Shown here: positions 1,391 to 64,000 of the stretch, one piece after another | Numbering within the stretch: the first letter of the stretch is position 1 | Layout of the letters: every line of letters starts with the position of its first letter | NCBI GenBank assembly: GCA_021018995.1 | Contig: CM037596.1 | Location: 100,733,416-100,797,415, forward strand | Direction: 5' to 3' | DNA from: Chloranthus sessilifolius | Taxonomy: Eukaryota > Streptophyta > Magnoliopsida > Chloranthales > Chloranthaceae | Length of the DNA stretch: 64,000 nt | Notes under the pieces: model-generated | What the model was told of the DNA's origin: nothing | The model's database searches: none | Seen by the model: only the letters and a program-made list of their open reading frames with translations | Position numbers and translations under genes: made by a program

Positions 1391-2165
1391 CGGCTCGATT
1401 AATCGAAATCCAGAATCGATTAATCGAGATTCAAAACTAGGTTAAGCCGCGCAAAATCGATTAATCGATTTCCCAAATCGATCAATCGAAAGTTAAATTC
1501 GATTAATCGAAATCGTATCCGTTTAAAAATTTAAGTTTTTGAGCTCACTGGCGCGAGCCAGTCGATTAATCGAAATCCATTTCGATTAATCGAAATTCCA
1601 AAATCGATTAATCGAATTTCACTTCGATTAATCAAAATCGTGCAGTAACTTCTAAATTTCCAGAATCCCTTAAGTATTCGATTAATCGAAATCCCTTTTC
1701 GATTAATTGAAATTTCAAAATCGATTAATCGAAATTCAATTCGATTAATCGAAATCGTCTATCTGACTTCAATTTCTTCCAAGTCCCTTTAGTAAATCGA
1801 TTAATCGAGATCCAGTTCGATTAATCGAAATCCAAAATCGATTAATCGACACTGCTTCGATTAATCGAAATTTCATTAATTTACTCCCAATTCTTCTAAC
1901 ATTCCCAGCATGTTCGATTTAATCGAACTTGCAGTTCGATTAATCGAATCCCCAATTCGATTAATCGAATTCTCAAAATCGATTAATCGATCCCAAATCG
2001 ATTAATCGAAATTATAATTTGATCAATCGAAATTGCATTCTATGCATATTCTAACTCTCATTTCAATTTCCAGTCACTGGCACATGCCAGTCGACTAATC
2101 GAACAAAATCGATTAATCGAAATTCCAAATCGATTAATCAATTTGAAATTCGATTAATCGGTTTT
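1391..2165. repeat. TCGATTAATCGA palindrome array (internal to A1)
   Basis: Roughly thirty copies of the 12-bp palindrome TCGATTAATCGA or near variants, separated by about 4-15 bp of AT-rich sequence with occasional longer gaps. The word matches the one in the A-family LTRs. The array fills the gap between integrase and the TATA box of the accessory ORF. Confidence 0.9.
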
Positions 2166-2376
2166 GCCCAATTTCTGCAGATTTTCTAGTTCTTTGGTTC
2201 TTTGATTTCTTTTGGTAGTTTATGACATCAAGTGGTTCATAGTTCCATGGAATTGCATACACTTGATCATATGCATAAAAAAAACTGTTCGTTAAATCAT
2301 ACTTTGATCAAAACTTCCATTGAATTACAAGTATCGTGGAGATTCCACAAACATGTTTGTGGTTTACATTGAATTC

Positions 2377-5300
2377 TCATGTCGTTGGAAACAAGGCTGG
2401 ATATTGTTCTTTCACATCGGCCTCTCGTTCCCAAGTAGCCTCTTCGTTTGGATGATTGTTCCACCAAACAAGCACTAAGGGAATCACTTTAGTGTGCAGT
2501 ATTTGTTCTTTTCGATCCAAGATTTCCACTGGTTCCTCTATCATGCTCATGTCCTCACACATCTCCATAGGTTGCTTTCCTAACACATGAGATGGATCAT
2601 TCACATACTTTCTGAGCATCGATATGTGGAACACGTTATGTACTCGATCAAACAGCGGTGGTAAACTAATGCGATATGCAACTTCACCTACGCGTCCCAA
2701 AATTTCGAATGGTCCAACATAACGTGGACTTAACTTCCCTCTCTTACCAAATCTCATCACACCTTTCATAGGTGACACTTTCACAAACACGTGCTCGCCC
2801 ACTTTATAGTCGACACTAGTCCGCTTCATATCGGCATAACTTTTCTGTCTACTTTGTGCTGACTTCAGCCTTTCTCTGATAATTCGAACAACGGTAGCGT
2901 TATCTTCAAGTAGTTTTGGTCCTAACATAAATTTCTCACCTGTTTCCTCCCAATTGAGGGGTGATTTGCATCGTCGTCCATACAGAGCTTCATACGGTGC
3001 CATGCCAATGCTCGTTTGGAAACTGTTGTTGTATGCGAACTCGAGCATCGGCAGATACTCATCCCAGTATCCTTGCATATCAAGCATGCACGCTCTGAGC
3101 ATGTCTTCTATTACTTGGTTCACTCGCTCTGTCTGCCCATCAGTTTGAGGATGGAAAGCTGAACTAAAATCTAGTCGTGTTCCCATTCCTTCTTGAAATT
3201 TCTTCCAAAACTTGGACGTATATAGTGGATCACGATCTGAAACTATGCTACTTGGAATCCCATGTAATCTTACAATCTCCTTCATGTATAAGTCTGCCAG
3301 TCTTCCTGCCGTATACGTAGTATTGTACGGCAAAAAGTGCGCTGATTTGGTCAATCGGTCTACGACGACCCAAATGGCATTGTGTCTCTTGGCAGTACGG
3401 GGCAATCCAACAATGAAATCCATCGAGATTGATTCCTATTTCCATTCTGGGATTGGTAAAGGCTGCAATAGTCCAGTAGGATGTCTATGATCAATCTTCA
3501 CTTGCTGACAAGTCAAACATCGTGACACGTATTCGGCCACGTCTTGCTTCAGTCCTCTCCACCAGTATTTCTTTTTCAAATCTTGGTACATTTTGGTGCT
3601 ACCAGGGTGGATAGCATAATTTGACTTATGGGCCTCATCAAGAATCGTTCGTCTTAGATCGGCATTGTCCGGAATGCATAGACGGCCCTTAAACAATAAA
3701 GAACCATCTTCTTTAACCGAAAAGTCTGACCTAATGCCTTCACTCACGTCTTGATGAATCTTTGTTAATGTCGGATCTTTCATCTGTAGATCGTGGATAT
3801 GCTCAAATATCACTGGCTTTACTGATATGTTAGCCAAAAAGGATCCGGTGTCCTTTGACTCAATGTTCGCATTGTAGAATGCCAGGTCTTCCAATAATTT
3901 CCATCGGTGCCTACCCAAAATCAAACAAGCTAACTGAGCTGAACCTTTCCGACTCAATGCATCGGCTACTACATTCGCCTTACCAGGATGGTATTGTATG
4001 GAGCAATCGTAATCCTTGAGGAATTCCATCCACCTGCGCTGTCTCATGTTGAGCTCTTTCTGTGTAAACAGATATCGGAGGCTCTTACGATCGGTGAAAA
4101 TTTCAAAAGTCTCACCATACAAGTAATGTCTCCAAATCTTTAGCGTAAAAATGACTGCTGCCAATTCCAAGTCATGAGTCGGGTAATTTTTCTCGTGTTC
4201 TTTCAGCTGTCTTGATCCGTAAGCTATCACCTTCTTGTGTTGGTTGAGTACACAACCAAGGCCATTATATGGCGCGTCGCTGTACACGGCGTATCCTCCA
4301 CTGCTTGAAGGAATCGCTAGCACTGGAGCCGAAGTGAGTCTCGTTTTGAGTTCTTGAAAACTCTTCTCGCATGCCTCACTCCACTCAAACCTTGAATCTT
4401 TTCGTGTCAGCTTTGTGAGAGGTCCCGATATCTTTGAAAACCCCTCGACGAAACGTCGATAATAGCCTGCTAAGCCCAGAAAACTTCGGACATCGGTCAC
4501 TGTCTTTGGTTGCTCCCATTTAACCACTGCTTCTATCTTTGCTGGATCTACAGTGACACCATGCTTTGAGACGACATGTCCCAAAAAGCTAACCTCTTCC
4601 AACCAAAACTCACACTTGCTGAGTTTGGCGTACAATTGGTGTTCACGTAGCGTCTGTAGAGCAATCCTCAAATGTTCTTCGTGTTCCGTCTTGGATTTGG
4701 AGTATATCAAAATATCATTAACGAATACTACGACGCAGGAGTCCAAGTGTGGTTTAAACACTCGGTTCATCAGATCCATAAACGACGCCGGAGCATTCGT
4801 CAATCCAAACGGCATCACAAGGAATTCATAGTGTCCATACCGTGTCCGGAAAGCTGTCTTCTGAATGTCCTCAGCCTTGACTCGCAACTGATGATACCCA
4901 GATCTCAGGTCGATCTTGGAAAAATACCTTGCTCCTTGCAGTTGGTCGAATAGATCGTCAATTCTAGGCAAAGGGTAGCGGTTCTTCACAGTGAGTTTGT
5001 TCAATTGTCGATAGTCAATGCATAGCCGCATTGACCCATCCTTCTTCTTGACAAACAAGATCGGTGCTCCCCATGGAGACACGCTCGGTCTAACAAACCC
5101 CTTGTCCATAAGCTCTTGTAGTTGTTCTTTCAACTCCTTTAACTCAGCTGGAGCCATTCTATAAGGTGCTTTCAAAATAGGCTCCGTTCCTGGTGCTAAG
5201 TCAATGGCGAATTCTACTTCTCTTTCTGGAGGTAATCCAGGCAATTCCTCTGGAAACACGTCGGTGAAATCTCGCACAACTGCTATCTCAGAAATGACGT

Positions 5301-5517
5301 TCTTTTCTTCCTTGTCCTCCTTTAAGAAAGCTAAGTATCCACTGCAACCCTTTCTGATCATTTTCTTGGCCCTTACTACTGAGATCAGTGGCACAGATGA
5401 CGACCTCACTCCTTGAAACCGAAATGATCTTCTCGTGTTGGGTCTGAAAATGACTACCTTGTTCTTGCAATCGACGGTTGCACAATGCTGCGCCAACCAG
5501 TCCATGCCAAGGATCAC
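2377..5517 (-). CDS. pol: A1 pol region: protease end, RT, RNase H, integrase, chromodomain
   Basis: Pol of a Tekay-type chromovirus, which would copy element RNA into DNA and insert it into the host chromosome. In order on the minus strand: the end of the aspartic protease region ([11 protein letters not shown]); reverse transcriptase with [20 protein letters not shown] and the fingers/palm segment [18 protein letters not shown]; RNase H ([25 protein letters not shown]-type region, near 4150-4230); the integrase zinc-binding HHCC part near 3480-3640; the integrase core starting near [10 protein letters not shown]; and a chromodomain-like end ([12 protein letters not shown], then EEATWERE). 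The segment is long and mostly open but broken. Upstream gag lies at higher coordinates. Confidence 0.9.
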
Positions 5518-5579
5518 ATCAAACCCCTACATGTCTAACAGTATCAACTTTGCTTCCAATTCATGCACCTCTAAGTCTC

Positions 5580-7128
5580 GAACTGCTACAATGATGGAAT
5601 TGCAAGCTAACTCTGTGTCTACTAACTCTCCAGTCGGAATAGACACAGATAGGACGAAATCCAACGTCTATGGAACAATCTTCATCTTCTTGGTGAAACG
5701 TGGAGTGACGAATGAGTGGATAGACCCTGGGTCTATCAACACTCGAGCATCATATCCACCGAAGCATCCTTTTTCATATATATTTAAAGTACCTATAGTA
5801 TACATACGTACATACATATAATAATTTACACATCAATTTACGCCCTTAATTCACATACAGCTTTTGTAAAAAAAGAAAATCTATACAATTTCTAATGCAT
5901 GCTCCTTCTCTATCTAAAATTTTAATGAAATGAAAATTTTCTTTAATTTTAAAAGGGTCTCACCTTGTATGACGTCATGCACGTTCCTTGCTTCCTGAGC
6001 AGTGACTGCATAGGCTCTCCCCTGAACGATCGGCTTCCTTGCTTGAATGGGTCGTGGTGCTGCAACTGAAACTGTCTTTCTCTTATCCGCCTCAGGGCAA
6101 TCCTTGATTAAGTGGCCCACCTTGCCACATCAAAAACAACCCCTAGTTCCCAATCTATAATCCACCGTCCTATGAGGCTTGCCACACTTTGCGCAAGTTT
6201 CCCGAGGTGCGGAAGAAATAGTACGAGAACCCTGTGTGATAGTGGCGCCAGTAGACATGGCAGGGCTCTCATATCGAAAAGGTCTCCCCGACGCAAGTAA
6301 TGGAAACCTCTATTGGTGTTGTTGTTGCGCCGGTCTTTCGAAACCCCCTTGAAACTGTGGTCTCTGATTTTGGGCTACGAACCTCGGCTTTTTATTCACC
6401 GGTTCATAGTGCCCCGATCTTCCTTGTTCATTTCCTCCTCTCTGCTGCTCTCTCTGTCGATATCTATTTGTATTCTCCTCTTCAACCACTAGTGCTTTAC
6501 TCATGACCTCTCCATAGGTCCTCAGCTGAAATGGAGCGACGCTTCCCCTAACCTCAGGCTTCAATCCTTGCTGAAACCTCTTGGACTTCATCACTTCAGT
6601 AGCGTGTCCGAGCAAACAGGCAAGTCGTGAAACTCCACCCCATATTCTCCCACTGTCATTCTCCCTTGCACTAATTGTAAAAATTGTATCTCAAGCTGGT
6701 TCCTCACCACTTTCGAAAAATATTGTTTGTTGAACTCCTCAACAAACTCCTCCCAAGTCCAAGGCAACTCTGGGGTCTCCTGAGCCCAAGTCCGTATCAC
6801 GGACTTCCACCAAGGCCCAGCCTCCCCATCCAACATATAAGCTGCCCATCTCACACTCTCATTTTCCATGCATGTTAGCACGCTAAAGACTTTCTCCATC
6901 TCCATCACCCGGGTCGCATTGTGTCTGCCAAAATGAAGGAGGTCTCATCCTCCCTAAACTCAGAAAGATGAGGGCACAGCAACGCAGTCCTACAGTGGTG
7001 TAGGTGGTCACGTTTCTTGACGCGTGAGCTGCAAAGGATGCGGCTTGTTGTGCCATAGCAGCTGCCATAGTCTCCATAGTGTGCATCATCCTTTGTCGCT
7101 CTTCTCTGTCTTTTTGTCTTTCTCTCAC
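5580..7128 (-). CDS. gag: A1 gag region with zinc knuckle, and start of protease
   Basis: Nucleocapsid/capsid-like region of A1. Recognisable parts on the minus strand are an early helical stretch (MRERQKDREERQRMMHTMETM), a retrotransposon-gag core (EAGPWWKSVIRTWAQ, WEEFVEEFNKQYFSKVVR, QLVQGRMTVGEYGVEF), a downstream MLGHATEVMKSKRFQQGLKPE stretch, and a CCHC zinc knuckle region ending GHLIKDCPE near 6100. Protease-like coding follows below 5900. The region is broken in several places. The order gag then pol on the same strand, behind the primer site, fits a standard gypsy element. Confidence 0.8.
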
Positions 7129-7400
7129 TCTCTCTTGTTCTCTTAGATCTTGATCCTGCCGATCTCGATCCTCTTCATTATGCTGTCTACTACTCGCTTT
7201 GGGCCTCGATACCTCCTAAAGGCACTCTATTAGTAGGAGAGATGTAATCATCTCCACTACGTAGACTCCTCTGTTGGCCTCCCCTTGGTCGGCCTCTTCC
7301 TCTAGATGACATTTGCGGCTGCATTTGAAACTAAAGTTTCGTTAGCAGAAGCCCCTATGTTCTGACGAAAGAACCATTGTCAGAATTGCTAAAAGAAAAA

Positions 7401-7412: not shown

Positions 7413-9178
7413 ACTGTGACAGCTCGGATTTTGGTACCCCGAAACCCGTGCCATCAGCACGATCATCTTGACCATGCCCCTTAGCTATGCACGAAACATT
7501 GGTATATCAAGCATCAAATAGAATAATAAACGAAATTGTAGAATTTAAATCTGTATTAAAGCAGTTCTCCAAAAGACAGTTCTACCCTCATGCCTCTGCA
7601 TGAATGGAGAACCGATCCGAACCATCGATGATAGCAATCATCACGGATGGTTCGACCCCAAAAGAATAATCCCAACTCAATAGATACATGGTTACACAAA
7701 ATAAGGCTTGACATACCAAGCCGCACAGATCTCTCTCAAAAACCCTCAAAGTGGCACAACGGAGTCCTCTAGAAGAAGTCCTCAAGAGGTGGCTCCAACT
7801 CTTCGCCGGCCGCAAGGTCCGACTCACCGGGGTCAGCGTCCCCTGAAGCCTCGACAGCTGCTAGTAGTGGACCTGCGACGTATAGTCTATAGGGTGAGCT
7901 ACATCCTAGCTCAATAGGGAACAAACACAGTTGAACATATAAATTACTACTCACATATATTCCATGATATGCCATGCATGATGTGTCTATGCAGTTATTG
8001 ATGAAAACAGTTAAAAAGCATTTCATTTTACTGTTGATTACTTATGTTTTCATTTACTCATGAATGATGCTGAAAAGGCCTAAAGCAAAACTTAAACTTT
8101 CAACTTAAGTAATCCCCGAGCAATATAGCATCGAGCCCCGATGAGATACCCTTCATCGTCATCTATATAGACACTTTTAACGTATTCCCTGGGAATATAA
8201 ATAGTACCCAAGCCCCTTTCCCCTGGGAATTGGTGGCGGGGTTTCACTTATCTCAAATCAACACCCCTGGGGTGTGCTTACTATGTACGGATATGCTTAG
8301 ACCGCCTACGGTTTTCACAGCCACGTGTCACGGATATTCTGGATATCCCGCCACGTCGGTGGGGTACCCTATCAAACCTCAAATAACAAAAATATCGGTG
8401 CGTTACATATAGTTATTCACCGTGTAAGTGTGCTATTTTATATCAGTTAGGCCCTATCAAGCATGATTCAATCCTGGATACATCCCTGGGATGTATCCAT
8501 TTACTTGCATCACACCTGATGCTCTTATCTCTTTACTTCTTCATCCCCTGGGGATGGCTCATTATAATTACTCTTATGGATGTCACACACACACACACTT
8601 TTCACAATTCTTAAACAATAAAACATTTGAATTGAATTTTATATCACTACATACATGCTCTTGTAAAATAAAGTACATGTTCAAGGTGTTCCCTACCTCA
8701 AGTCTTTGTTTGCTCAACGCATCAAGGTCCCACGTGGATCCTTGTGCATTAGTTCACACGTACCACCTATGGTACCACATAACAGGTGAAACATGATGAG
8801 TACTGAAAAATGAGGATATTTCGCCCCTAAATACCTATATTTAGCTGTCCGATGAAGGCTATCTGATAAGATTGATTAGATTTGAAGTGTTTCAGGTAAA
8901 TACAAGCCAAGTATAGAAAACAGTACAAGAATTCTGAATATAATGCCAAAACACTGTAATTTCGGGTAATCAAGAACTTGGTGTGACTTACGGCTAAATT
9001 TGGACCTTCAAGACGGCCGAATTACGAACTTGTCAAAACATGAACGTTGTAGATCTTTTCGTCAGCTTTCCAACGGCGCAAGAATCGTCTCAATCCGAGT
9101 TTAGGACAGAAAGTTATGGCCAAAATACCGAAGCAGTGTCTGAACCACAAGAAAGTGCTGATTTTCACGGATTTCTGG

Positions 9179-9315
9179 GGTCGATGCATCGACCCTACAG
9201 GTCGATTCATCGAGCCAGAGTTTCAGTCTGACACGAATCTGACACTGGAAACGTGATTTTTTGGATTTCTTGTCGGCTCGATGCATCGACAGCCCTGGGT
9301 CGATTAATCGACCCT
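9179..9315. promoter_or_regulatory. B1 palindrome cluster upstream of TATA
   Basis: Contains GGTCGATGCATCGACC, a GGTCGATTCATCGAGCC variant, CTCGATGCATCGACA and the perfect palindrome GGGTCGATTAATCGACCC. The TATTTAAA box follows 37 bp later at 9352-9359. The place in the LTR (about 385-520 from its start) matches B2 and B3 but the words differ. Confidence 0.75.
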
Positions 9316-9834
9316 AAAAAATCGGCTTGGGAGACCTCCGCGCAACGGTTCTATTTAAAGACTCAAACACTTTGGGAAAAAAGGAGATTAGAGATCTTTT
9401 CAGCATTAGAATTACGTAGGAATTAATTTTAGGAGAGAGTTTTAGTTTTTAGTGTTCTTAGTTTTTAGCCATTATTTTTCATAGAAATAGAGAAGTTTTA
9501 TTATTCTTTTTGAGAGCTTTGTTCTTTAATTTTTCCGTACTCATTCCTAAATTTTATTCAAAGTTTATTCCTGCATTAATTTTCTGAAGATCATCCGTGT
9601 GGATCAACGTAATTTATTTTGAAGCTTGAGGTAATTTTAATTAATGTTATTTTCCCGTCTTTATTTATTTATATCATTTACTTATAATATGTGTGGCTAA
9701 ATTTATAGGGATGGGGATCTAATGATTCCCATCCGAGGGATGTACTTTTAATAATATAAATTAGGGATTAAAATATAAGATTTTAATTTATGGTTGTTGT
9801 GTTATCATGAATGGATGAAATCCCCGCCACTAAC

Positions 9835-10165
9835 CGGGATCGCGTGTGCCGAGTCATGCCCGGGATCTCAGATCTGTGACGATAATTTTACCCTATCATT
9901 GCTATGGTCTTTGTATTTTCGTTGTGTGGATTTAATTATGATTATGTTCTGGGATCGAGTGTGCCGAGCCATGCCCTGAATCTTGGTTCTGTAATGGTAA
10001 TTTTATCTTAAATATCCCTAATCTGAATAAAGTGTGCCGAGCCATGCCCTTGATTTCAGATTTGTAAGTGGTATTCTTATTGGAATTTTCACCCACCTTG
10101 GGGATGATTTTTATTTGAACCCGAGATCATGTGTGTCTAGCCGTACCCTTGATCCCAGATCTATA
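9835..10165 (+). repeat. Fourfold block GTGTGCCGAGCCATGCCC in B1 LTR
   Basis: Four diverged copies of a roughly 35-bp block built on GTGTGCCGAGCCATGCCC followed by an AGATCTG-like stretch, spaced about 70-115 bp apart. The same arrangement is in B2 (12935-13265) and B3 (54295-54630), so it is an old LTR feature downstream of the TATA box. Confidence 0.75.
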
Positions 10166-10679
10166 TATGAAAATCATCTAAGTCCTAATTGCAGGGATGC
10201 AACGTGGAACCTATTAGGGTGTTGACTATTGATCTTCCATAAAAGATGTTTGTTATCAATGAAATATCTCATAATTTAATCCTTAGATTTATATTATAGG
10301 AAGAACGGACCAAAGATGGGAGGATTTAGTATCTTCATCTTTATCATCATCTTTACTTTTATTTCTGAATTATCAATTGAATTTTATTTCTGTAGTCATT
10401 AATTACCATCTCATCAACCGCTTAAATCATAAAATTGGTAGAATACTGTTAGATCCATAGATTTCTAGAATTGCTTGTCTCTTTTAGATAGTTCAAAATT
10501 AATCCTCGTGGGAACGATCTCGTACTCCGCACCCACTATATACAAACCGATTCGTGCACTTGGGAGTAAAACATTACATTAAAAATATCACATCAAAACA
10601 CATCACTAAGGATGCAATAAAGAAGGTCCAAGACCCTCCAAGAATCTTAAAGTCAAACTCAAAAGTCAGCATGATTTAT

Positions 10680-11165
10680 CTCAGTCGATTAATCGAACTC
10701 TAAAATCGATTAATCGAATCTGATTCGATTAATCGATTTCCAAAATCGATTAATCGAAAGTCAATATCGATTAATCGATTCTCAAATCGATTAATCGAGA
10801 TTCTCATTCGATTAATCGAATCCTAATTCGATTAATCGAAATTCTCTATTTAACCAAGTCGATTCTCAATTCGAGTAATCAAGTTCCTAAAATCGATTAA
10901 TCGATCCCAAATCGATTAATCGAAAATTGAAATCGATCAATCGAAATCCCATTTCGATTAGTCGATTTTCCACAAGTCATTTCCTCCAGCCCCTGGGGTC
11001 CACTGGAGGTTCCCAATCGATTAATCGATTCTCAAGTCGATTAATCGAAATCCAAAGTCGATTAATCGAACTCCAATTCGATTAATCGAAATCGGGGTCC
11101 ACTGACTTTTCAACTTCTTGGCCAATTTCGATTAATCGAAACCCAATTTCGATTAATCGAAATTG
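10680..11165. repeat. TCGATTAATCGA array in A1 LTR
   Basis: About twenty copies of TCGATTAATCGA and close variants with AT-rich spacers. It lies about 590-1070 bp from the element-sense start of the LTR, the same place as in A2 and A3. Confidence 0.9.
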
Positions 11166-11922
11166 TCAGATTCAGCCCCCTTTTGGCTGTTCTTCTCAAT
11201 CTTTTTCCACACTTTTTCCTCTATTTTTCTAAACCATTTTCCTATGATTTAAACCATTTTCAACTACAATCTAACCCCTACAATCTATGCATTTTATTTA
11301 CAAAAATTTACCTTGAATCAATCTCAAATTGATTTCAAATCAAATAGTTGGAAGGCTAGGGTTCCAGCTTTGGCTTGAACGGATTCCTTGCGCAGAATCG
11401 GCCTCTTTGATACTTGAATCCCCCTTCCAATCACCCGCAATAACTCCTTGCTTAATCACCCTCTTTACTCCTCTCTCTCTCTTCTTTACTTCTCTCTCAA
11501 CAACCAAACTATTGATTTTAGGGTTATTAAACCCTTTTATCCCCCCCCTAGCTTGTGTGTTGAGCACATGCACCTCAATAGGTGTATGTGACTTCAGATT
11601 CACAACACGCATCACATGGTTTCACAAACCATCTCATCTCATTCACTCATCACACTCTACGTTAACTATCGAACTCCTAATTGGTCAAACCTGTGACCGA
11701 TCGGGCACGGATCCCGAGGTCATAGTTTAGCGTGATTTTTCAGGCTATTACAGTTTCTCCAAGATATCAGGCCTGCTTACACAACTTACGAAGAATACTA
11801 AATTTGATTGGACATAGCAATGTGAGCAGAGTTTTCAGTAACTCAAGAAACGATTGACTGCTGCACCAGTACTTGCTCTACCGTCAAGCAGGGGAGGCTT
11901 TGTAGTGTACAGTGATGCATCG

Positions 11923-13709
11923 TGATGAGTAGTGAAATATGATGATATTTCACCCCTAAATACCTATATTTAGCAATTCGATGAAGGCTATCTAATGAGA
12001 ATTACTAGATTTGAAGTGTTTCAGGTAAATACAATCCAAGTGTATAAAACAGGCCAAGAATTCCGAAAATAATGTCAAACACTGCAATCTTGGGTCATCG
12101 AGAACTTAGTAAAACTTGTAGCTCAATTTGGACCTTCCCGACGTCAGATTTGTGAAATTTATAAAACACAAAAGTTGTAGAGCTCATCGTCTTCTTTCCA
12201 ACGCCATAAGAATTGCCTCAATCTGACTTCGAAATAAAAAGTTATGACTAACATACCAAGGCAGTGTCTAATGGAGACTTGGCTGAAGTTTACGAAAATC
12301 TGGGAAGGTCGATCGATCGACCTTCCAGTCGATCAAGCGAGGTAAGCAACAGAGTTTGAGACGAAAAGGACTTCTTAACGCAGATTTTTAAGGAGTCGAT
12401 CGATCGACCTTCTAGTCGATTGATCGACCCTGACTTTTCGAGCCAGGAAAACTGCGAGACTTGGAGAGTATTTAAAGCAAAACCAACAACTCAAGAGAGG
12501 AGTTTTTTAGACGTAGATTTAGAGATTTTATTTTTTGGAGAGCTTTGTTATTCTTTTACCTTCATGTTTTTAGCATTCCTTTCTTGAGAGAATATTATTT
12601 TTGTTAAATTAATTCCTAGTTTAAATTTAGAGATTAATAGAGAGCATTTCTAATTTCGTTTATAAAGATCATCGTACTTGTGGATTCAGTTTGGATCAAA
12701 GAATTGCTATTGAAGGTTGAGGTATTTTTAATTAATTTTATCAATATTATTTTCCAGTTATTACTCTTTTATGTCATTTAATTACAATATGTGTGACTAA
12801 TTTCTTAGGGATTGGGATCTAATGATTTCCATCCGAGGTATGTACTTCTAATAGTATAAATCTAGGATTAAAATATGAGATTTTATTTTATGGTTGTTGT
12901 GCTATCACGAACGGATGAAATCTCCGCCATTAACTGGGATCGAGTGTGCCAAGCCATGCCCTGGATCTCAGATCTGTGACGATAATTTTACCCCAATCAT
13001 TGTTATATAGTCTTTTTGCTTTCATCGTGTGGATCTACTTATGATTATGATCCGGGATCGAGTGTGCCGAGCCATGCCCTGGATCTTAGATCTGTAATGG
13101 TAATTTTATCTTAATTACTCCCTAATCTGAAATCAAGTGTGTCGAACCATGGCCTTGATCTCAGATCTATGGTGGTATTCTTGTTAAAATTTTTACCCAT
13201 TTCAGGGACGATTTTTATTTGAAATCTGAGATCAAGTATGTCGAGCCATGCCCTTGATCCCAGATCTATATATGGAAATCATCTATGAAATTAAGTCCAG
13301 ATTGCAGGGATGCAATGTGGAACTTATCCGAGTTTTGACCACTTATCTTCCATAAAAGATGTTTTTCTTCAATGGTATATCTCATAGTTTAATCCTTAGA
13401 TTTATATTACAAGAAGAAAAAACCAAAGATGGGAGGATTTAGTATCTTCATCTTCTTCATCTTTACCTTTATTTTTGAATTATAAATTAGACCTTATTTT
13501 GTACTCAGTAAGTATTATCTCACAAAATCGCCTAAATCATAATCTTGGTAGGGTACTGTTAAATCTTGGTAGATTTCTTGAATTACTGTTTCATCTTTTT
13601 AGATTTTCTATATTGATCCTCATGGGAACGATCTCGTACTCCGCACCCACTATCTACAATCTGATTCGTGCACCTGCGAGTAAAACGCCACAATTAAAAA
13701 TCCACAACA
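11923..13709 (+). mobile_element. B2: Athila-family solo LTR inside element C
   Basis: A 1787-bp LTR starting TGATGAGTAGTG and ending CCACAACA, flanked by perfect 5-bp duplications CATCG (11918-11922 and 13710-13714). It splits C's RNase H region. It has a palindrome cluster (12305-12430), a TATTTAAA box at 12469 and the fourfold block (12935-13265). No internal sequence remains. Confidence 0.93.
12305..12430. promoter_or_regulatory. B2 palindrome cluster upstream of TATA
   Basis: Holds AAGGTCGATCGATCGACCTT, a GTCGATCAAGCGAGG variant, AGTCGATCGATCGACCTT and AGTCGATTGATCGACC. TATTTAAA follows 39 bp later at 12469-12476. The cluster is in the homologous place to the B1 and B3 clusters but uses a different word. 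Confidence 0.75.
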
Positions 13710-16194: not shown

Positions 16195-18390
16195 TGTAAG
16201 GACTCGTATTTCTGAACCCGATCTAGACAGACTTGGGTACGTGTTTGGCTCGGCAACCGATGTCACCATTTGTTTTGGATTACTATTTAGATGTGATTGT
16301 GCGGACGAATTTCAATTTAGAGCTCGATCTAACCCTTGTGTGAAATCTGTGCACCGACTTTCGGTGTGACCGCCCAACACCGGAGTTAAGTCATTGAAAT
16401 TAGAAAGTTTAACACACTTATGAGGTGTGTGTGACTAACACTTTCCACAAACTCATTATAAGAAAGAGGATACCTCCCATATTACACTAGGTTTATATTG
16501 AGAAAAGAAAGGGGGAACGAGTGCTCGCGTTGGAGAACCCTAGCCGAGTTGTATCGTGCAACCCCACACAAACTTCGTTCGCTTTGCCATCAATCCTAGT
16601 AGGAGATCAGTTTCGAAACCCTTTTTCTCTAGAACCCTCTTGTGTTTGAAACCCTTGATCCTAAGGCAAGCTCGGATCGATTTTGGATTCGTTTTATTAT
16701 TTGGGAGAGGTTGAGATCGTGGTGAACGAGTAGGAGTTGTCCTTGTGAACTCGTGGGATCGTTCGCGGCACGAATCGTCGACGAAATCCGACGATTTCTT
16801 TTGGAAACCCCGTTTGCGCAACTTGTTTCAAATCGGGAAATCCTAGGTATGATTTTGATTAACTTTATTGATTAAAATTATTGGATTAGATATGGGTTTT
16901 GCTTTTGGATTTGTGTATGATTCAATTTGGGTGAAAACTAGGCGAAAGATTGCAAATTCTGAAGCTTCGATTGTACAGTTGCTGTAGCTCGCGTGCGCAA
17001 GGATTATCATCGCTCGCGCGAGGAACCATCAGAAGTTTGACTGTAAAGTCGTTTAATCAAAAAAGTGAATGGCACTTTAGTCTCTGTGCTCGCTCGAGCG
17101 AGTTTAAGTTATCACTCGCGTGAGGAATCGGCTCGCTCATGCAAGGATTGTCATCGCTCGCGCTAGGATTATTATCGCTCGCACAAGGACAGAACATGGT
17201 TTGTCTTTGTTTTTTATTTTTCTTCTCAAATATTATGCTACTAGACATGTAATATAAGGTCTGTATAGTTGCTAGGTTATGGTGTGGGTTTTGACACCGT
17301 TCAATAGGCCTTGTTTGGACTTCGATTTGTGTGAAACATCTCGAGGTAGGAGAATCTCATCACTACCACATTTTATTTTAATTCGCATGGATATTTTGAA
17401 TTAGAATCTTTGAACTTGCATATGCCATTGAAATCACGCCTGTAAACTAAAAATCTGATATAAATTCTAAAATTTGAAATCTGAACTATATATAAGAAAT
17501 TCGCATTTGTACCATATTAGTATCTGCATCTGTTTTATGATTCACCTGAACAACACCTCAAAATTTCTGAACAATTTCCTGGCACAAGTTACCCTCCTGG
17601 GTGTAGGAGCTTGTTGCATCCTGAAAAAGGGTTCATGAACTATGATAGTAGGTAGGGGTTCCCATCGGCTATATTCCTGCTCTCGAGATATAGTTAACTC
17701 GAGAGGTATTTTAAGTTGAGGATTAAGTCATGAATTATTGAACTTTACATATAGAAGTTAGAGACACTAAGACGCTGAATATCTGCATCTGCTTTGAATC
17801 TGTTTTCACCTATTTAGAACTTGATCTTATGTATGATTTTCTGCATTTAAATTCAGTCTTTTACCGCATTATCTAGTTCTAACATGTTATATTCCGAAAT
17901 ATGTTTTGAAAAATCATGTTGGTTAAAATACAATGCCGTTGATGATATTTTTCTACTGAGCTTTATTGGTTAGCTCACTCCGACTATACGTCCGCAGTCC
18001 AGTAATCTTGGCGTGGCGATTCGAGGTTCTTGAGACGATCCGATTTTGCAGGAAGAGCCTGAGGTTCCTCCTGAGGAGTATTTTCCGGCTTAGGATTTAG
18101 TTTATTTATTTGCTTTTGGTGAGAGTTTTGGACTTGGTGTTGTGGGCCCATTTGTTGGATATTATGGCTTTATGCTTGACTTTTGTTTACAGTTACGAAT
18201 CATGTTTCGGTGATGGTCGACCATCATCGGTGATTTCGCACTTTAATTGCTTCCGCATTTTTTTTTGCTTTGATTATTTATTGCGCTTTACTCTAATATG
18301 TGCTCTGTTTGTCCGACTTATCGTTTAACCGATAGGTTGGCGAACCGGCCTTTCCTATACCTGAGGGATTGGAAAAGTCGGGTCGTCACA
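16195..18390 (+). repeat. C 3' LTR
   Basis: A 2196-bp LTR from TGTAAGGACTCG to GGGTCGTCACA. Its end matches the D LTR end, so the two are related. It carries a palindrome cluster at 16988-17190 and a coding-free remainder. A (CT)n tract follows directly outside. Confidence 0.85.
16988..17190. promoter_or_regulatory. C LTR palindrome cluster (CTCGCTCGAGCGAG type)
   Basis: Repeated words ATCGCTCGCGCGAGGA, GCTCGCTCGAGCGAG, ATCACTCGCGTGAGGA and ATCGCTCGCGCTAGGA. They lie about 790-995 bp into the LTR. The same area of the related D LTR has AATTCGA/TCGAATT words instead. Confidence 0.7.
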
Positions 18391-20712: not shown

Positions 20713-21091
20713 CCCTTCTATGACTTTCTTTAACCCACAAAGCATCATCTTTTTCGTCATTTGAATCTGCTAAAAAGTTAGAGGTGGGTCAGGTGACGAC
20801 GTCTTCTTCCTTAGTTTGATCTGCTCCGATATGCTATTTCGAAGAAGAAAACAGAGGCTTGGGAGAAGAAGCCCGTGCATTTCTCCATTGTGACAAGAAG
20901 ACCTTGCAGTTTGCCCTTACAACGCAAGGTATCTTACATAAACCTCATTTTCAGTTTATTAGAGTCTCTTAATAGGGCAATATAAAAAATAATTTAAGTT
21001 TATTGGTCTACATTTTCAGTTTGTTAGGATCTCCTATTCATGCAGTATAAGAAAGTCTTTATATCCTTGGATCATTTTTTGAAAAGTATAT

Positions 21092-21385
21092 ATTGATTTC
21101 AAATATAATCGTCATTGACTCTATATACAGTCGATATCGATTGCAAATATAATCGTTATCGACTCTATATTCAATCGATAGCGATTGTCTACAAAGTCGG
21201 TATCGACTCTATATAAAATCAATATCGACTGTATATAGAGTCGATGATGACTCAATATACAATCGATATCGACTGTATATAGAGTCGATGATGATTCTAT
21301 ATACAATCGATATCGACTATATATAGAGTTGATATGACTCTATACACAGTCGATATCGATTGTATATAGAATCGATATCGATTTA
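21092..21385. repeat. MULE 22-bp array 1 (transposase leader)
   Basis: About thirteen units of a 22-bp repeat such as AGTCGATATCGACT plus TATATA-like linker, with A/G and C/T alternating at the palindrome edges. It lies between the left end and the transposase start. Confidence 0.85.
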
Positions 21386-23886: not shown

Positions 23887-24043
23887 AGTGTATATTTTTA
23901 ATAATGATTGATGGAATGTAAACGAGACAATATATATTTGCTCAAAAATTCAGAATCCCAATTTTTTTGATTCATAATAGTTGTAATTTTACTGTATAGT
24001 TACTCAGAAAAATGCAACCTAGAATGTACAAATGACCCGTCAG

Positions 24044-24280
24044 CAACTATATATATAATCGTTGACGATTATTTATAGAGTCATCGTCGACTATATAAAT
24101 AATCGATAGTGACTCTATATTGAGTCGCCATCGACTCTCTATAAAATCGATATCGATTCATAGTAGAGTCGCTATCGACTGTTTATATAGTCGATGACAA
24201 CTCTACATAGAGTCGATGACGACTCTATCTAAAGTCAATAGCGACTCTATATAGAGTCGTTAATATAGTCGATGACCACT
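24044..24280. repeat. MULE 22-bp array 2 (between convergent genes)
   Basis: Units like AGTCGATGACGACTCTA and AATCGATATCGATTC between the 3' ends of the transposase and the ULP1 gene. It is followed by copies of AAAATGTTTCATTTA (24300-24375), which recur beside array 6. Confidence 0.85.
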
Positions 24281-24437
24281 GCTACTTAAAAATGTAATCA
24301 CTGCTCCTTAAAAATGTTTCATTTATACTAAAAATGTTTCATTTATATTTAAAAATGTTCCATTTACATTTACAAAATATTATATTTACAATACAACCAT
24401 TGCTACTTCTGCGCCTCCTCCATTGAGTCGTTCTGCA

Positions 24438-28311: not shown

Positions 28312-28410
28312 CTTGACAGCTTGTTGAAATAAACTATAATAAAAAAGAAAGAACTGAGTCTCATACTAACAAGGATAGTTTAAATGTTAACTGAACTGTA
28401 ATATATAAAA

Positions 28411-49976: not shown

Positions 49977-52091
49977 TGTGACGACCCGACTTTTTTAATC
50001 CTTAAGGTATAGGAAAGGCCGATTCATCAATTTATTAATTTCTCAATAAGTCGTAAATCAAACAGAAGCCGGCAGCATAAGCAAAGGTCCGAACAGAAGC
50101 ATAGCTAAAATAAGCAAGTACAAAAACTCATATAAAATAATATATCATCCTAAGGAACCAGGAAAAATCACCGGTGATGGTCAATCCAAACACCTAAAAC
50201 AATGGTTCCTGATGATGGTTCCTCAAATGATATCCAAAATGACAAAACAATGGCCTTGGGCCCATAACTCAGAAATAATTCTAAACAAAAGTACCAAAAA
50301 GACAATCCAAATCAGGGAAAAACTTCTCAACTGGGGTCTCTAATTCCTCCTCAGGAATATAGTTGGAGTCCTTCAGATCAAGATCTTCAGCTCCCAGGTT
50401 AGTCTCAGCACCTGTGACGTATAGTCGGGTGAGCTAACAACGAAGCTCAATAGAGGAAACTTATCCATTTATATTTTATTATAAGTAAAGATTTTTCAAA
50501 GACAAAAATCAGATCAGATATGATTTTCAAATGATGCATTGATGTCCAAATTTCAATTCTAAAATAGTAAGCAAAAATGATTCAACAAATCTGAGGTTAT
50601 GATGTTTTCACAATTCTGAAATAAGCATGCTTCTTATCTTAAATTTATAACTTAATTTTATTTCCCAAATTACTTATAGCATGAGAGCGAGAGTATTACC
50701 GATAAGAAACCCTACTGACCATCGTCATTCATGAACCTTTTTTTGGAAAAAGCAATAAGCCCCTACGTAATGAGAGAAACTTATGCAAAGCTGAATTACC
50801 ATCAACACGATTAGTAGGATCTAGGGTTTCGTTCGTATGTGTCTCAAATCAAATGCAAATGCTAAACATATCATATTTTATGTAATTAATACATTTTCGG
50901 ATTTTCAGAGTTCTGATTCAAAGTTCACATTTGAAGATGAGGTTCAGAAGTTCAACTTTCTGAGTTCTTATATCAAAGTTTCAGAATTCTTAATCATGCA
51001 ATGTTTATCAAAATTCAGATTTCATGCTTGCTAACAAAATAACCTAAACTTATAATAGAAAGCAAATTAGGTTTAGGGTTCCCCTACCTCGACTCGAATC
51101 AATTAAAATTTACACCAAGAAGTCCTCACAATGGACTCTTTATCACAAGGCCTATAATGATTAATACTACAAGTGTTAATAGAGGTCCAAAAGTCAAACC
51201 CAAAAGCTTCTCATAATATTTTCCAAAAATTTTCTAAAGTCCAGAAACAGAGCAAAATTCAACCCTCGAATTTCCCAAGAGTGCATCAAGCATAAAAGCC
51301 TAAATTCGACTCTCAAATTGAAATTCGACCCTCGAATTTCTCCAAATCTGTAGTGTTCAAATAGTCCTTCAGATTTGATTTCTTACATTCCAAAGCACAC
51401 ATTCAGTTTATCTTCTCTAGATGCACCATATACCTAGCTAAGCTAGGCATAAATACCTTAATCAAAGGAGTTTAAAGAGCCTACCTTTCACGGTCTACTC
51501 CTAGCTTCCGTTGATCCAAACTCAAGCACAGGATTAAACTGCAAGCCTCAATTAGCTGAGCTCCAATTCAGTCCATCACAAACCTTACTGTTAGAGCAAA
51601 GGCTTAGCCCAGACAACACACAGAACTTTCCACTCTCCCCTAGCCTTCCTTCTAATTATATCAAACTAATCCAAATCCATTTACAAGGCTTTTCAATGGC
51701 CAAGATGGGGAGAGGGAATTCTAATCTCAAGAAATTTGCAAGGAAGTAAAGGGTTCTAAGGCTTCAATTCAGTTCACACGGGAGAGAAGAGTGAAGTTTC
51801 TCCTCTACACTTCTCTCTTTACAATACTAATAAGCAATCAAAACATCTAGATTTTTACCTTAACAATTTTATCCACTCAAATTGCAATTATTTCTAGTGT
51901 TAATCGCATACACACGACTTAGCGTATATGTTATCGAGCATATGACTTCCACAAGTCCAGATAAAAAATCCTTTAACCACATCCCTCATCATACCCTAAG
52001 CTACCCAAATAACCAGACTTGTCTCGTAAACTTTTTCGAGCACGCATATCAAGGTAACCGAAGTCAAGTTCAAAATATCAGGGATATTACA
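49977..52091 (-). repeat. D 3' LTR
   Basis: A 2115-bp LTR; on + it runs from TGTGACGACCCGAC to GGGATATTACA. The minus-strand polypurine tract GGTGGGGAGAA lies at 52092-52102. The palindrome cluster (51253-51341) has AATTCGACCCTCGAATTT-type words. Confidence 0.8.
51253..51341. promoter_or_regulatory. D LTR palindrome cluster (AATTCGA/TCGAATT)
   Basis: Three inverted words, AATTCAACCCTCGAATTT, ATTCGACTCTCAAATT and AAATTCGACCCTCGAATTTC. They lie about 750-840 bp into the LTR, close to where the related C LTR has CTCGCTCGAGCGAG words. Confidence 0.6.
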
Positions 52092-52833
52092 TTCTCCCCA
52101 CCTTGGGAATTTTCGTCCTCGAAAATGTAAAAGACGCACAACAAAGCTACCAGAAAACCCACCCTAAGCAAAAAGTCATAACGGAAATGAAAAAAAATAC
52201 AAGGTGTAAACAAAAAGTACATGGGTCACCATGCGATGGCCTCACAAGGCACGCAAGTCAAGGGATGGGATCCATAGTAACCTGGATGTACTGCATGTAG
52301 ACCTAAAGGGCCAGAGTGGATTGCATCCGTACATGGATGCCGACACCCTGAGTGTCACGTGCCGGGAGACAACCTCACCGTGACTCATGATGAACGAGTG
52401 AGAACGTGATCAATTAAAATTTCCAAAGAATGTAAAGTATCAAAGAGTCAAAGAGAGTGAAGCACAAAACCATGCGTGAAGACGAATAAAAAAACAAAAC
52501 GGAAGGCGATAAGCATAAATAACGTATAGTCGAAATAGCCATATGCATAAACGTATAAACCCACAACAGAGACAAAAGATCTCATCATATAGGCAAGGGA
52601 ACTATACAGCCAATACCAAGCATCTCTTGATTACATGAGGCATAAACTAAATTACAGATCGAACCATCGTATAGCACAAAACAAAAGTATATAATAAAAG
52701 TAACAAAAAGATAGAACCAGAAGGTTTTATAGCATCCATAAAATAAATACAACCCATAAACATGACAAAAGAGAAGCATAACAGCACACTGGCTGATCTA
52801 ATCCTCTCCCTCAACAGCCTGACCAGCCGGAGC

Positions 52834-53326
52834 CTAGTCATCGTCCCCACCATCAGCATCATCTTCATCATCCGTTTCGTCATCACCTGTATCCGGAGGT
52901 ACATTGGAACTTGCTCCCGATGTAGAAGCATGGTAAACCGACGCCCGGATATCTGCCATGTAAGTCGCATAGTCGGCGGGAAACGCGTGCTGCATCAAGT
53001 ACGTCAAAGCCCCGTCATGAACCTCTAACTCTCGACTCATGGAGCTCGTATGCTGAGTCAGCGCCTGAATCTGCTAGCTTATAGAAGTCATCTAGCGAGT
53101 AGACTCTGATAGGGTGAGGACATCAGTAAGTGGGGGCTAGATCGTCTTAGGAGCGACAGGCTTTACTACTGCGTGATCGTCATCCTCCTCATCATCCTCA
53201 TCGGGAACAACCATACCTTTAGGAGCCTTTAACAATTTATTGTAGGTCCTACCCCAATCGACCAATTTATAAATTTTGAGACTAGTGGTGGATCGAGGCT
53301 CAGTAGGACGAATCTCATAAGCTGGT
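52834..53326 (-). CDS. D accessory ORF region, plant transposon-associated protein end
   Basis: The minus strand encodes segments such as IYKLVDWGRTYNKLL, an acidic PDEDDEEDDDHAVV, MSRELEVHDGALTYLMQHAF, and a Ser/Asp-rich end finishing DDADGGDDD. The pattern fits the C-terminal half of the same 'putative plant transposon protein' type as the ORF at 464-1156. It lies just before the 3' LTR. Broken; function unknown. Confidence 0.5.
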
Positions 53327-55058
53327 TGATGAGTAGCGAAATATGATGATATTTCACCCCTAAATACCTACATTAAGCTATCCGATGAAGGCTATCTAAT
53401 GAGAATTACTAGATTTGAAGTATTTCAGGTAAATATAATCCAAGTGCAGAAAACAGCCCAAGAATCCCGAAAATAATATCAAAACACTACAACTTGGGTC
53501 ATTGGGAACTTAGTGCTACTTGCATCTCAATTTGGACCTTCAAGACGTCTGATTCAAGAAATTTCTAAAACACAAAAGTTGTAGGGCTCGTCATCAGCTT
53601 TCTAACTATGCAAGAATCGCCTTAATCCGAGTTCGAAACAGAACATTATGGCCAAAATACCGAGACAGTATCTGATGCAAAGTTTGGCGGGAGTTCACAA
53701 AAATTGCTTTTAGACCTCAATCGATTGAGAATTAAGTCTCAATCGATTGACATGAGAAGACAACTCTTTTTCTACTTAAGAGTCAATCGATTGAGATTTA
53801 AGTCTCAATCGATTGAGGTATTAGGGATAGGGTTTGGTCGACCTTATAAAAAGAAAGCTACGAGTTGTGAAAAGAGAGGATTATTAGTTTTGAAGAGTTT
53901 TTATTTTTGAGAGTAGGTTCTAGAGATAGAGAATTTTTATTTTTCCTTTTTGAGAGCTTTGTTCCTTTAACTTTTCAGTATTCATTCCTTCAGTTTATTA
54001 TTTTTGTTCAGTTGATTTCTACATTAATTTCGTTTATGAAGATCATCGTACTTTTGGATCAAATAATTTTCATTGAAGTTTGAGGTATTTTTTATTCATT
54101 AAATTAATGTTATTTTCTCTTCCTTATTTATTTATGTCATTTAATTATAATGTGTGGCTAAATTCATAGGGATGGGGATCTAATGATTCCCATCTGAGGG
54201 ATGTACTTTTAATAATATAAATCTAGGATTGAAATATGAGATCTTATTTTATGGTTGTTGTGTTATCACGAACGGATGAAATCCCCACCACTAACTGGGA
54301 TCGAGTGTGCCGAGTCATGCCCTGGATCTCAGATCTGTGACGGTAATTTTACCCCAATCATTGTTATATGGTCTTTTTGCTTTCATCGTATGGATCTACT
54401 TACGATTATGATCCGGGTTCAAGTGTGTCGAGCCATGCCCTAGATCTTGGATCTGTAATGGTAATTTTATCTTAATTACTCCATAATCTGAAATCAAGTG
54501 TGTCGAGTCATGCCCTTGATTTTAGATCTATGGTAGTATTCTTATTGGAATTTTTACCCACTTTAGGGATGATTTTTATTTGAACCTGAGATCATGTGTG
54601 TCGAGCCTTGCCCTTGATCCCAGATCTATATATGAAAATCATCTCTGAAATTAAGTCCTGATTGCAGGGATGCAACGTGGAACCTATTAGAGTTTTGACC
54701 ATTTATCTTCCATAAAAGATGTTTATTTTCAATAGTATATCTCATAGCTTAATCCTTAGATTTGTATTATGGGAAGAACAGACCAAAGATGGGAGGATTT
54801 AGTATCTTCATCTTTACCTTTATTTTTGAATTATCAATTAAATTTTAGTTTGTAGTCAGTAATTGTCATCTCATAAAACTAGATCATAATATTGGTAGGG
54901 TACTGTTAAATCTTAGTGGATTTCTTGAATTACTGCCTTGTCTTTTTAGATCTTTCAAAAATTGTCCTCGTGGGAACGATCTCGTACTCTGCACCCACTA
55001 TATACAATCTGATTCGTGCGCTTGCGAGTTAAAAATTACAATTAAAAAAATCATATCA
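53327..55058 (+). repeat. B3 5' LTR
   Basis: A 1732-bp LTR from TGATGAGTAGCG to TCATATCA. It has a CTCAATCGATTGAG cluster (53717-53817), a TTATAAAAAG box (53844), the fourfold GTGTGCCGAGCCATGCCC block (54295-54630), and the end TCGTACTCTGCACCC conserved with B1 and B2. Confidence 0.92.
53717..53853 (+). promoter_or_regulatory. B3 palindrome cluster and TATA box
   Basis: Four near-identical words: CTCAATCGATTGAG, CTCAATCGATTGAC, GTCAATCGATTGAG and CTCAATCGATTGAG. Spacers include AATTAAGT and ATTTAAGT. TTATAAAAAG follows 27 bp later. Confidence 0.75.
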
Positions 55059-55064
55059 AGTTTT

Positions 55065-55083: not shown

Positions 55084-55237
55084 TAAATTAAGAAAATCTA
55101 AATTTTAGTAGACAGTAAATTTTAGGAATTTTCGAGGATTAAAATAGTATTTCTGCTAATTAAAAAAAAGATTTAAAAAAATAATAATAATAATAATAAT
55201 ATTGATTAATTCGGATAGGAATTTGTGTATTTTTAAC

Positions 55238-55425
55238 AGTCAATCGATTGAGAATTCTTTCTCAATCGATTGACTGTGTTCCGTGGTTGTGAGCACTGCT
55301 TAGTCAATCGATTGACACGAAAAAGTCAATCGATTGAGAATTCTTCCTCAATCGATTGACTGTGTTCTGTGGTTGTGAGCACTGCTTAGTCAATCGATTG
55401 ACACGAAAAAGTCAATCGATCGACT
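55238..55425 (+). repeat. B3 leader: 86-bp duplication with TCAATCGATTGA words
   Basis: Two copies of an 86-bp unit (starting at 55239 and 55325) carry paired GTCAATCGATTGAG and CTCAATCGATTGAC words. These flank a GAATTCTT loop and are followed by GTCAATCGATTGAC. The word is the one used in this element's own LTR. Confidence 0.85.
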
Positions 55426-63295: not shown

Positions 63296-63308
63296 AGGTT
63301 TGGGGGTG
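63296..63308 (+). other. B3 polypurine tract
   Basis: AGGTTTGGGGGTG lies directly before the 3' LTR start TGATGAGTAGTG. Confidence 0.85.
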
Positions 63309-64000
63309 TGATGAGTAGTGAAATATGATGATATTTCACCCCTAAATACCTACATTAAGCTATCCGATGAAGGCTATCTGATGAGAATTACTAGATTTGA
63401 AGTGTTTCAGGTAAATATAATCCAAGTGCAGAAAACAGCCCAAGAATCTCGAAAATAATATCAAAACACTACAACTTTGGGTCATTGGGAACTTGGTACT
63501 ACTTGCAGCTCAATTTGGACCTTCAAGACATCCGATTCAGGAACTTTCTAAAACACAAATGTTGTAGAGCTCGTCGTTATCTTTCCAACGCCATAAGAAT
63601 CGCCTCAAGCTGAGTTCGGGACAGAACATTATGGCCAAAATACCGAGGTAGTATCTGATGCAAAGTTTGGCGGGAGTTCACGAAAATTGCTTTTAGACCT
63701 CAATCGATTGAGAATTAAGTCTCACTTGATTGACATGAGAAGACAACTTTTTTCCTACTTAAGAGTCAATAGATTGAGATTTAAGTCTCAATCGATTGAG
63801 GTATTAGGGATAGAGTTTGGTCAACCTTATAAAAAGGAAGCTACGAGTTGTGAAAAGAGAGGATTATTAGTTTAGAAGAGTTTTTATTTTTGAGAGTAGG
63901 TTCTAGAGATAGAGAATTTTTATTTTTCCTTTTTGAGAGCTTTGTTCCTTTAATTTTTCAATATTCATTCCTTCAGTTTATTATTTTTGTTCAGTTGATT
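63309..64000 (+). repeat. B3 3' LTR, cut by window edge
   Basis: The first 692 bp of the LTR. It carries the same CTCAATCGATTGAG cluster (63700-63801) and a TTATAAAAAG box near 63827. Confidence 0.92.

Follow-up and report, generated by a model that had tools for sequence, protein, structure and literature searches.

Family-specific palindrome arrays in nested transposons of Chloranthus sessilifolius, predicted binding sites for proteins of the elements themselves

The window analysed here is a stretch of 64,000 nt of the Chloranthus sessilifolius genome (assembly GCA_021018995.1, 2.17 Gb; contig CM037596.1, C13:100733416-100797415) that contains a nest of plant transposons. Several of these carry arrays of short palindromes, and some encode, after pol, an extra open reading frame (ORF) related to the Pfam family PF20167; the arrays, this ORF and the putative relation between the two are the subject of this report. 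Further stretches of the same genome, outside the window, are designated by locus numbers (L006, L011-L044), and the family labels Tekay and Athila, which derive from a first-pass annotation of the sequence, are assumed.

Element A, of the Tekay type, is complete once 4 kb to the left of the window (L025) are added, and displays the order 5' long terminal repeat (LTR), gag-pol, palindrome array, TATA stretch, extra ORF and 3' LTR. The 5' LTR (7415..11753, minus strand) is interrupted by an Athila LTR at 8794-10596, and the 3' LTR, 95-96% identical to it, lies outside the window (L025 843-3329). The gag-pol region (2380..7316, minus strand, with an approximate gag start) encodes a reverse transcriptase (RT) of the RVT_1 type, RNase H, integrase and a weak chromodomain. 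An array of 26 TCGATTAATCGA sites (with at most 2 mismatches) occupies positions 1391..2165 (minus strand); it had been taken for an LTR cassette and lies instead downstream of pol, ahead of the extra ORF. It is followed by a TATA-like stretch (1376..1385, minus strand) and by the first part of the PF20167 ORF (467..1154, minus strand), the frame of which is broken at 467 and which runs on to window position 1 and into L025. The word TCGATTAATCGA is common to this array and to both LTR leaders, with 19 sites in the 5' LTR (10685..11165, minus strand) and 18 in the 3' LTR. Since a TATA-like and a splice-donor-like sequence precede it, the leader array of A may be a leader intron. Two solo LTRs of the same family, with target-site duplications read by eye, are present at 38031..40507 (plus strand, CAGCC, array 38610-39028) and 41299..43563 (minus strand, AGTTT, array 42530-42985). 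The latter is flanked by two related A-rich tandem arrays (40830-41300 and 43565-44540), the second composed of 363-bp units with 92% matches.

Three LTRs of the Athila type, B1, B2 and B3, carry paired sites at a similar offset, approximately 380-510 bp from the LTR start, with a TATA-like box shortly after the end of the cassette. B1 is a solo LTR (8794..10596, plus strand) with a cassette at 9178-9314 (GGGTCGAT-GC/TC/TA-ATCGACCC) before a TATTTAAA, and B2 (11923..13701, plus strand) has a cassette of the GGTCGATCGATCGACC type at 12303-12430. The 5' LTR of B3 (53327..55047, plus strand) contains four TCAATCGATTGA-type sites at 53716-53817 before TTATAAAA, the B3 leader (55235..55420, plus strand) six more in two 86-bp units, and the 3' LTR (63309..64000, plus strand), cut by the window end, a cassette at 63699-63800. 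The parts of the LTRs around these cassettes are 77-86% identical despite their differing words, namely TCGAT-GC/TC/TA-ATCGA in B1, TCGAT-CG-ATCGA (some copies imperfect) in B2 and TCAAT-CG-ATTGA in B3.

A DNA transposon, a Mutator-like element (MULE), extends over approximately 21.0-29.7 kb, with a broken transposase gene and a VANC-like exon on the other strand. The transposase region (21448..24000, plus strand, frames broken) carries in its second half, with stops read as X, matches to Transposase_mut (1.5e-6) and SWIM (1.6e-8) above the Pfam cut-off and to MULE (1.2e-4) below it, and the VANC-like exon (27532..28365, minus strand) matches PMD (1.8e-7) and DUF1985 (1.2e-4), both below the cut-off. 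Beyond this exon there are open stretches at 26551-27231 and 25756-26238 and Peptidase_C48 matches within 24250-25280, that is, a coiled-coil-like stretch and then Ulp1-type pieces; DUF287 was not among the matches of this second gene. Seven arrays occupy seven non-coding slots of the one MULE copy examined: M1 (21085..21385) upstream of the transposase, M2 (24040..24290) between the two genes, M3 (25320..25525), M4 (26245..26530) and M5 (27225..27485) in probable introns, M6 (28400..28735) upstream of the VANC-like gene and M7 (29455..29620) at the terminus. Their dyads recur at lags of 11/22/44 bp, with repeats of 22/44 bp, and the top autocorrelation was 0.40-0.67 in all seven and at most 0.14 in four controls; dyad counts alone were not above the largest shuffle.

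All the palindrome words named by the first-pass annotation are found in the window sequence, and its expectation that they exceed chance was borne out in part. Perfect palindromes of at least 12 bp were counted per region and compared with the largest count in 300 dinucleotide shuffles. Family A gave 21 against 5 (1391-2165), 16 against 4 (10680-11170), 13 against 3 (solo LTR, 38605-39035) and 10 against 4 (solo LTR, 42520-42990); the B3 5' LTR (4/1) and the B3 leader (6/1) were far above chance, and B1 (3/2) narrowly exceeded its largest shuffle. B2 and the B3 3' LTR (2/2 each) did no more than equal it, and element C (1/2; LTR leader at 16980..17190, plus strand, with degenerate CTCGC..GCGAG words and one perfect 14-mer at 17089) and element D, which has no perfect palindrome of this length and two to three copies of a word with a 3-bp spacer, failed the test. 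So did the seven MULE arrays (0-2 against largest shuffles of 2-6), because their palindromes are imperfect. In four control stretches, with 30 shuffles each, three counts stayed within range (0/2, 2/6, 0/2) and the fourth, 31500-37500, exceeded it (20/7) owing to runs of TA dinucleotides near 34.4-34.6 kb. Clustering had been claimed for every listed element; it holds for A, B3, B1 and, by periodicity, the MULE, is weak in C and D, and does not apply to element E, in which only one spaced palindrome (33320-33338) was found.

A detector that requires at least three copies of one spaced palindrome found 18 palindromic arrays in the window, compared with no mirror-symmetric arrays and nine arrays of directly repeated half-sites as controls; 15 of the 18 fall inside the cassettes already described and the others lie at 24312, 30976 and 40670. 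In 20 evenly spaced 10-kb pieces of contig C1 it found 10 palindromic arrays, distributed over seven pieces, against 0 mirror and 7 direct half-site arrays, and no array was found in four additional samples from other contigs. With a looser setting (two copies, spacer of at most 8) there were 58 palindromic and 8 mirror regions in the window, the 20 samples, L025 and L026 together. The 16-mer GGTCGATCGATCGACC has 1601 occurrences in the genome, and its reversed control has none. The pattern TYRAT-NN-ATYRA fits many of the window words. The clusters are present in other copies of the same families, with A represented in L011, L013, L024, L025 and L026 and the B3 word in L022, an element with 86% match to B3 over 2.5 kb.

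Comparison of family-A copies indicated that the words are conserved relative to their surroundings. Among three LTR copies the word columns differed by 4-10% and the spacers and flanks by 13-37%; since choosing the columns from the compared copies can bias the result, the comparison was repeated with six copies, one of which set the word columns for the other five. Divergence was then 5-7% in words, 20-27% in spacers and 28-32% in flanks, i.e., the spacers diverge approximately 3-4 times more than the words. In the closest pair (A5-S1), 31 CpGs inside words were shared and 3 were present in one copy only, while outside the array 3 were shared and 10 were in one copy only. The sites are also regularly spaced. 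Twelve arrays were measured, which are not independent (nine belong to family A, and two of these come from the two LTRs of a single element); of their 187 distances from one site to the next, 146 measure 15-26 bp (mean 20.56, standard deviation 1.08). Among the longer distances, roughly half are close to multiples of this value (40-45, 63-65 bp) and roughly half are not (50-56, 72-79 bp). The array comparisons support the earlier proposal of one format with different words across unrelated superfamilies, and the divergence comparisons show the words to be conserved.

The extra ORF of family A is related to PF20167 at a level below the Pfam cut-off of 45 bits: an open copy in L026 reached 33.4 bits (E 5.4e-8), the piece in the window E 1.1e-4 and the D-type ORF of L012 18.8 bits, and the open part of the L023 ORF gave no match to this family. 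In six loci (L031, L033, L036, L039, L042, and L043) the match is above the cut-off. A search with the window ORF piece returned 40595 first-look candidates, 150 of which were scored, all at least 90% identical, and approximately 130 of the 150 scored rows have no internal stop. The ratio of nonsynonymous to synonymous substitution (dN/dS) of the A-type ORF was 0.09-0.10 in three comparisons (230/230, 164/195, and 165/199 codons compared; dS 0.53-0.88), and that of pol 0.07; therefore, the extra ORF of family A is a gene kept by purifying selection and not debris. Searches of the public protein collection with the PF20167 ORF and the MULE exon yielded 611 and 268 candidates, none with E of 0.001 or lower.

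The word in the LTR equals the word before the ORF in three Tekay families. In L013, a copy of family A, it is TCGATTAATCGA at both places, and in the L023 element TTGATCGATCAA forms both arrays, the downstream one being assigned to the 3' LTR by position. A D-type element in L012, the LTR, pol and ORF of which were assigned to a single element from their order and orientation, has two copies of AAATTCGA-NNN-TCGAATTT in the LTR and three before the ORF; the same word is found at 51258-51340 in the LTR of element D in the window (49978..52097, minus strand, ends by eye), and a remnant of the PF20167-type extra ORF of element D is present at 52671..53340 (minus strand). This D-type element of L012 seems to have landed immediately behind another one that carries the TTGATCGATCAA word, and both have PF20167-type ORFs and words of their own.

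For a wider comparison, 14 PF20167 loci were picked for diversity among the 150 matches listed. Two of them, L031 and L033, have lost the upstream region, so that PF20167 is joined directly to copia-type RT or gag/pol sequence (RVT_2 only beside the L031 ORF, Pol_BBD only beside that of L033); these junctions look like the internal deletion of a copia element carrying the ORF after pol. In 11 of the other 12 the upstream region exceeds all 100 shuffles for a word, and over 18 loci the own-word counts do so in 17. Words 4, 5, and 7 were read from the tested loci themselves and that of L043 by eye; therefore, the independent test is given by the replicate loci, namely L034, L035, L041, and L042 for ACGGACGTCCGT, L040 for CCTCGCGAGG, and L038 and L039 for the Athila word. 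Counts of each word in each locus are near-diagonal, with expected cross-matches between TCGATTAATCGA and TCGATGCATCGA; further off-diagonal counts correspond to the longer B2 word in L037-L039 and to three TTGATCGATCAA-like sites in L037. The Athila-type loci L037-L039 carry 12-19 TCGAT-TA/GC-ATCGA sites before the ORF, which is the B1 word of the window; TATTTAAA is also present in L037 and L038, and L037 starts with an integrase end nearly that of the B3 element, as judged by eye. In L043 the PF20167 ORF immediately follows an LTR-like end and a primer-binding-like site (TGGTATCAGAGCC), with degenerate GTGGTTAACCAC words upstream, an arrangement that resembles the first gene of a non-autonomous element.

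Relatedness of the ORFs was then compared with the word over the 18 loci, distributed in seven word classes (L044 was classed by eye). The 20 pairs with the same word have ORFs 45-96% identical (mean 304 bits), and the 133 other pairs 23-38% where matched (mean 24 bits, with no match counted as 0); none of 10000 permutations reached this association.

These observations point to a partner encoded by the elements rather than to a common host pressure, since the LTR and pre-ORF arrays share a word and related ORFs share a word while distant ones mostly do not. Based on the sequences, we consider it probable that the palindromes are binding sites for proteins of the elements themselves, and a family may produce proteins able to recognise its own members. 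To a more specific proposal we give an even chance: the PF20167 "env-like" genes of Tekay and Athila elements, and probably of Sireviruses, would be element-specific DNA-binding regulators and not envelopes, addressing palindromic operator arrays of their own element both at an internal promoter and in the LTR, a retrotransposon counterpart of VANC that a MULE of the same genome would have reached independently. The PF20167 ORF, in the env-like position, is the candidate reader in the LTR elements, and it would be driven after pol by an internal promoter of its own, made up of array and TATA. Each palindrome would be bound by one dimer, and with a distance of two helical turns between sites adjacent dimers would come to sit on the same side of the double helix. 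Once bound to the internal promoter and to the LTR, the protein would activate the extra ORF together with the entire element, or protect them from silencing; when its specificity shifts, the sites in both arrays would follow, so that the format stays and the word changes. In the MULE the DUF1985/PMD protein may play the same role, as VANC does in VANDAL elements. That the proteins bind, that they form dimers and which way the effect goes, towards activation or towards anti-silencing, are features that we infer.

Several observations weigh against this proposal. L044 has no array beyond chance in 100 shuffles, and only 8 of the 12 newly fetched loci pass a test that is blind to the word. Tekay A and the Athila loci L037-L039 share the TCGATTAATCGA core with ORFs only 26-34% identical. 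Element C has an array, albeit a weak one, and only approximately 600 bp between pol and LTR, and the Athila copies B1-B3 of the window are devoid of a detectable PF20167 ORF. PF20167 has no detectable homology to the DUF1985/PMD exon of the MULE: hhalign, in a weak test of a four-row alignment against one exon, gave a probability of 0.2% (E 0.33), and DUF1985 had no match in the scanned PF20167 ORFs, so that a common origin of both proteins was discarded. In addition, the agreement of word and protein across families can be plain common descent, both being inherited together; by itself, common descent leaves unexplained that one word stands at two unrelated promoters of one element and changes in concert between families.

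The first-pass annotation had favoured a common host-side pressure, which is not the best reading of these data as the word follows the element and its extra ORF. In the form of one or several host transcription factors, perhaps a family with a TCGAT-like half-site, binding arrays on which the superfamilies converged as strong enhancers, it is kept as an alternative that we judge unlikely. Many window words do have in common the half-site TCGAT, or a version of it altered at the CpG, with 0 bp between half-sites in the MULE and 2 bp in Tekay A and Athila; several arrays stand just before TATA-like boxes, and TCGATTAATCGA occurs in the unrelated Tekay A and Athila B1/L037-L039, which a host factor would explain equally well. 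However, ACGGACGTCCGT, CCTCGCGAGG and AAATTCGA-NNN-TCGAATTT appear too different for a single host factor, which was discarded for this reason; the two promoters of an element have one word, which changes from family to family, and the coupling to the extra ORF would be left unexplained by a host factor.

That the arrays arose from a conflict over silencing, as self-complementary repeats feeding or deflecting small RNAs and CG methylation with no dedicated binder, seems improbable to us. The words are CG-rich, and in maize the palindrome-rich LTR regions of Sireviruses are hotspots of small-RNA mapping (PMC5311732); yet conserved 12-bp words beside freely changing spacers, together with kept CpGs, suggest a reader of sequence, RNA processing alone would not predict a spacing of two turns, and the MULE has its arrays also in probable introns and terminal DNA. 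Neutral growth of chance palindromes by slippage or unequal exchange would fit the longer tandem units that Tandem Repeats Finder detects in portions of A (117 bp) and of the B3 leader (86 bp) and the existence of directly repeated half-site arrays (nine in the window, seven in the samples). We regard it as very improbable: slippage copies the spacers with the words, yet the spacers diverge approximately 3-4 times faster, and mirror arrays number 0 and 0 against 18 and 10 palindromic ones. Dimerisation of LTR transcripts through the palindromes was rejected because it does not cover the DNA transposon.

Other features of the window are mentioned for completeness. A reading frame resembling an NB-ARC resistance gene (32159-37171, with a GMGGLGKTTL-type motif and then VLVVDDVW) is broken by approximately 3.3 kb that include E. 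Palindromes at 48203-48256 are not part of E; they belong to another feature, similar to the repeats of L006, and were set apart. These clustered GATACGTATCG palindromes, present also at L006 1508-1675, lie in the window approximately 2 kb from a DUF659 ORF (45557-46021) and may be subterminal repeats of a hAT element. Tandem repeats of 23 and 75 bp, rich in GCACCACG and with overlapping open frames, are present at 30970-31290.

The first-pass annotation knew of no described system of this kind, which can no longer be upheld, as two related ones are in print. Bousios et al. (2010) reported that 13 Sireviruses contain palindromic repeated motifs in their LTRs, mostly not the same from one element to the next, and that the classic Ty1/copia elements compared lack them (PMC2829016). 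These boxes cluster in the LTR upstream of TATA; in the nine elements with an ENV gene they recur, mostly upstream of that gene, an internal ENV promoter being supported and reading by stress-related factors suggested (PMC2829016). Boxes in the LTR and before an ORF after pol are likewise found in A, L013, L023 and the D-type element of L012, and ACGGACGTCCGT has the CGG-CCG core of Sireviruses while the relatives of its ORF in L031/L033 join copia sequence. In contrast, the Sirevirus boxes are restricted to copia elements, whereas here they occur in gypsy elements (Tekay and Athila) and in a MULE, and the backbone of element A is RVT_1 with a weak chromodomain and not Ty1/copia; here, moreover, the gene is PF20167, the word follows the ORF, spacing and conservation were measured and the ORF is proposed as the reader.

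In VANDAL transposons the VANC protein, which has DUF1985, acts in a sequence-specific anti-silencing system that removes methylation, and it binds a short motif particular to the family (Hosaka et al., 2017; PMC5735166). The motif is arrayed in the non-coding DNA of the elements, namely introns, intergenic stretches and termini, and VANC21 binds such non-coding repeats (PMC5735166). The motifs change in concert between related families, and an unrelated element, AT9TSD1, carries VANC6 motifs (PMC5735166, PMC10398659). The MULE of the window has a putative DUF1985 protein (match below the cut-off) and, in the one copy examined, arrays of a short motif in non-coding DNA; it looks as if it may work like VANDAL elements, because DUF1985 is a domain of VANC and the arrays sit in VANC-type non-coding places. 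Unlike the words described here, the motifs of VANC21 and VANC6 are not palindromes, and those of VANC21 point one way; the LTR elements, in turn, use PF20167, in which no homology to the DUF1985 exon was detected.

Outside plants, the regulator gene of foamy viruses lies after pol and is expressed from an internal promoter. This single regulator, Tas/Bel-1, acts on the internal promoter and on the LTR (PMC8670036, PMC4929722). The circuit proposed here would likewise have one regulator at both places, with VANC-like specificity; foamy viruses are vertebrate retroviruses, and the likeness is one of circuit, with no claim of homology. To our knowledge, family-specific palindrome arrays have not been described in foamy viruses.

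Extra ORFs are also on record in plant retrotransposons: PF20167 was reported in an extra ORF of sunflower Athila elements, Retand extra ORFs are predicted to bind DNA, and tandem repeats that differ by family are described in the stretch from pol to the 3' LTR (PMC7264820, PMC11728184, PMC12844716, PMC11963269). The available text of these four papers differs from the present proposal in giving the functions as unknown and in making no link to palindromes. No report of this arrangement in gypsy elements, of PF20167 as the gene involved in it, of a correspondence of word and ORF or of the ENV ORF as reader was found in the accessible portions of the open-licence literature, preprints excluded.

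According to the sunflower study, whether such proteins modulate the epigenetic landscape of the elements remains to be investigated (PMC12844716). The extra or env-like genes described here come with concrete, family-specific candidate target words and, therefore, binding can be tested with one experiment per family. Should the proposal hold, plant transposons of both classes would have in common the strategy of controlling their transcription or silencing through sites addressed to themselves, and the fast-changing words would provide a large natural collection of proteins matched to their DNA targets.

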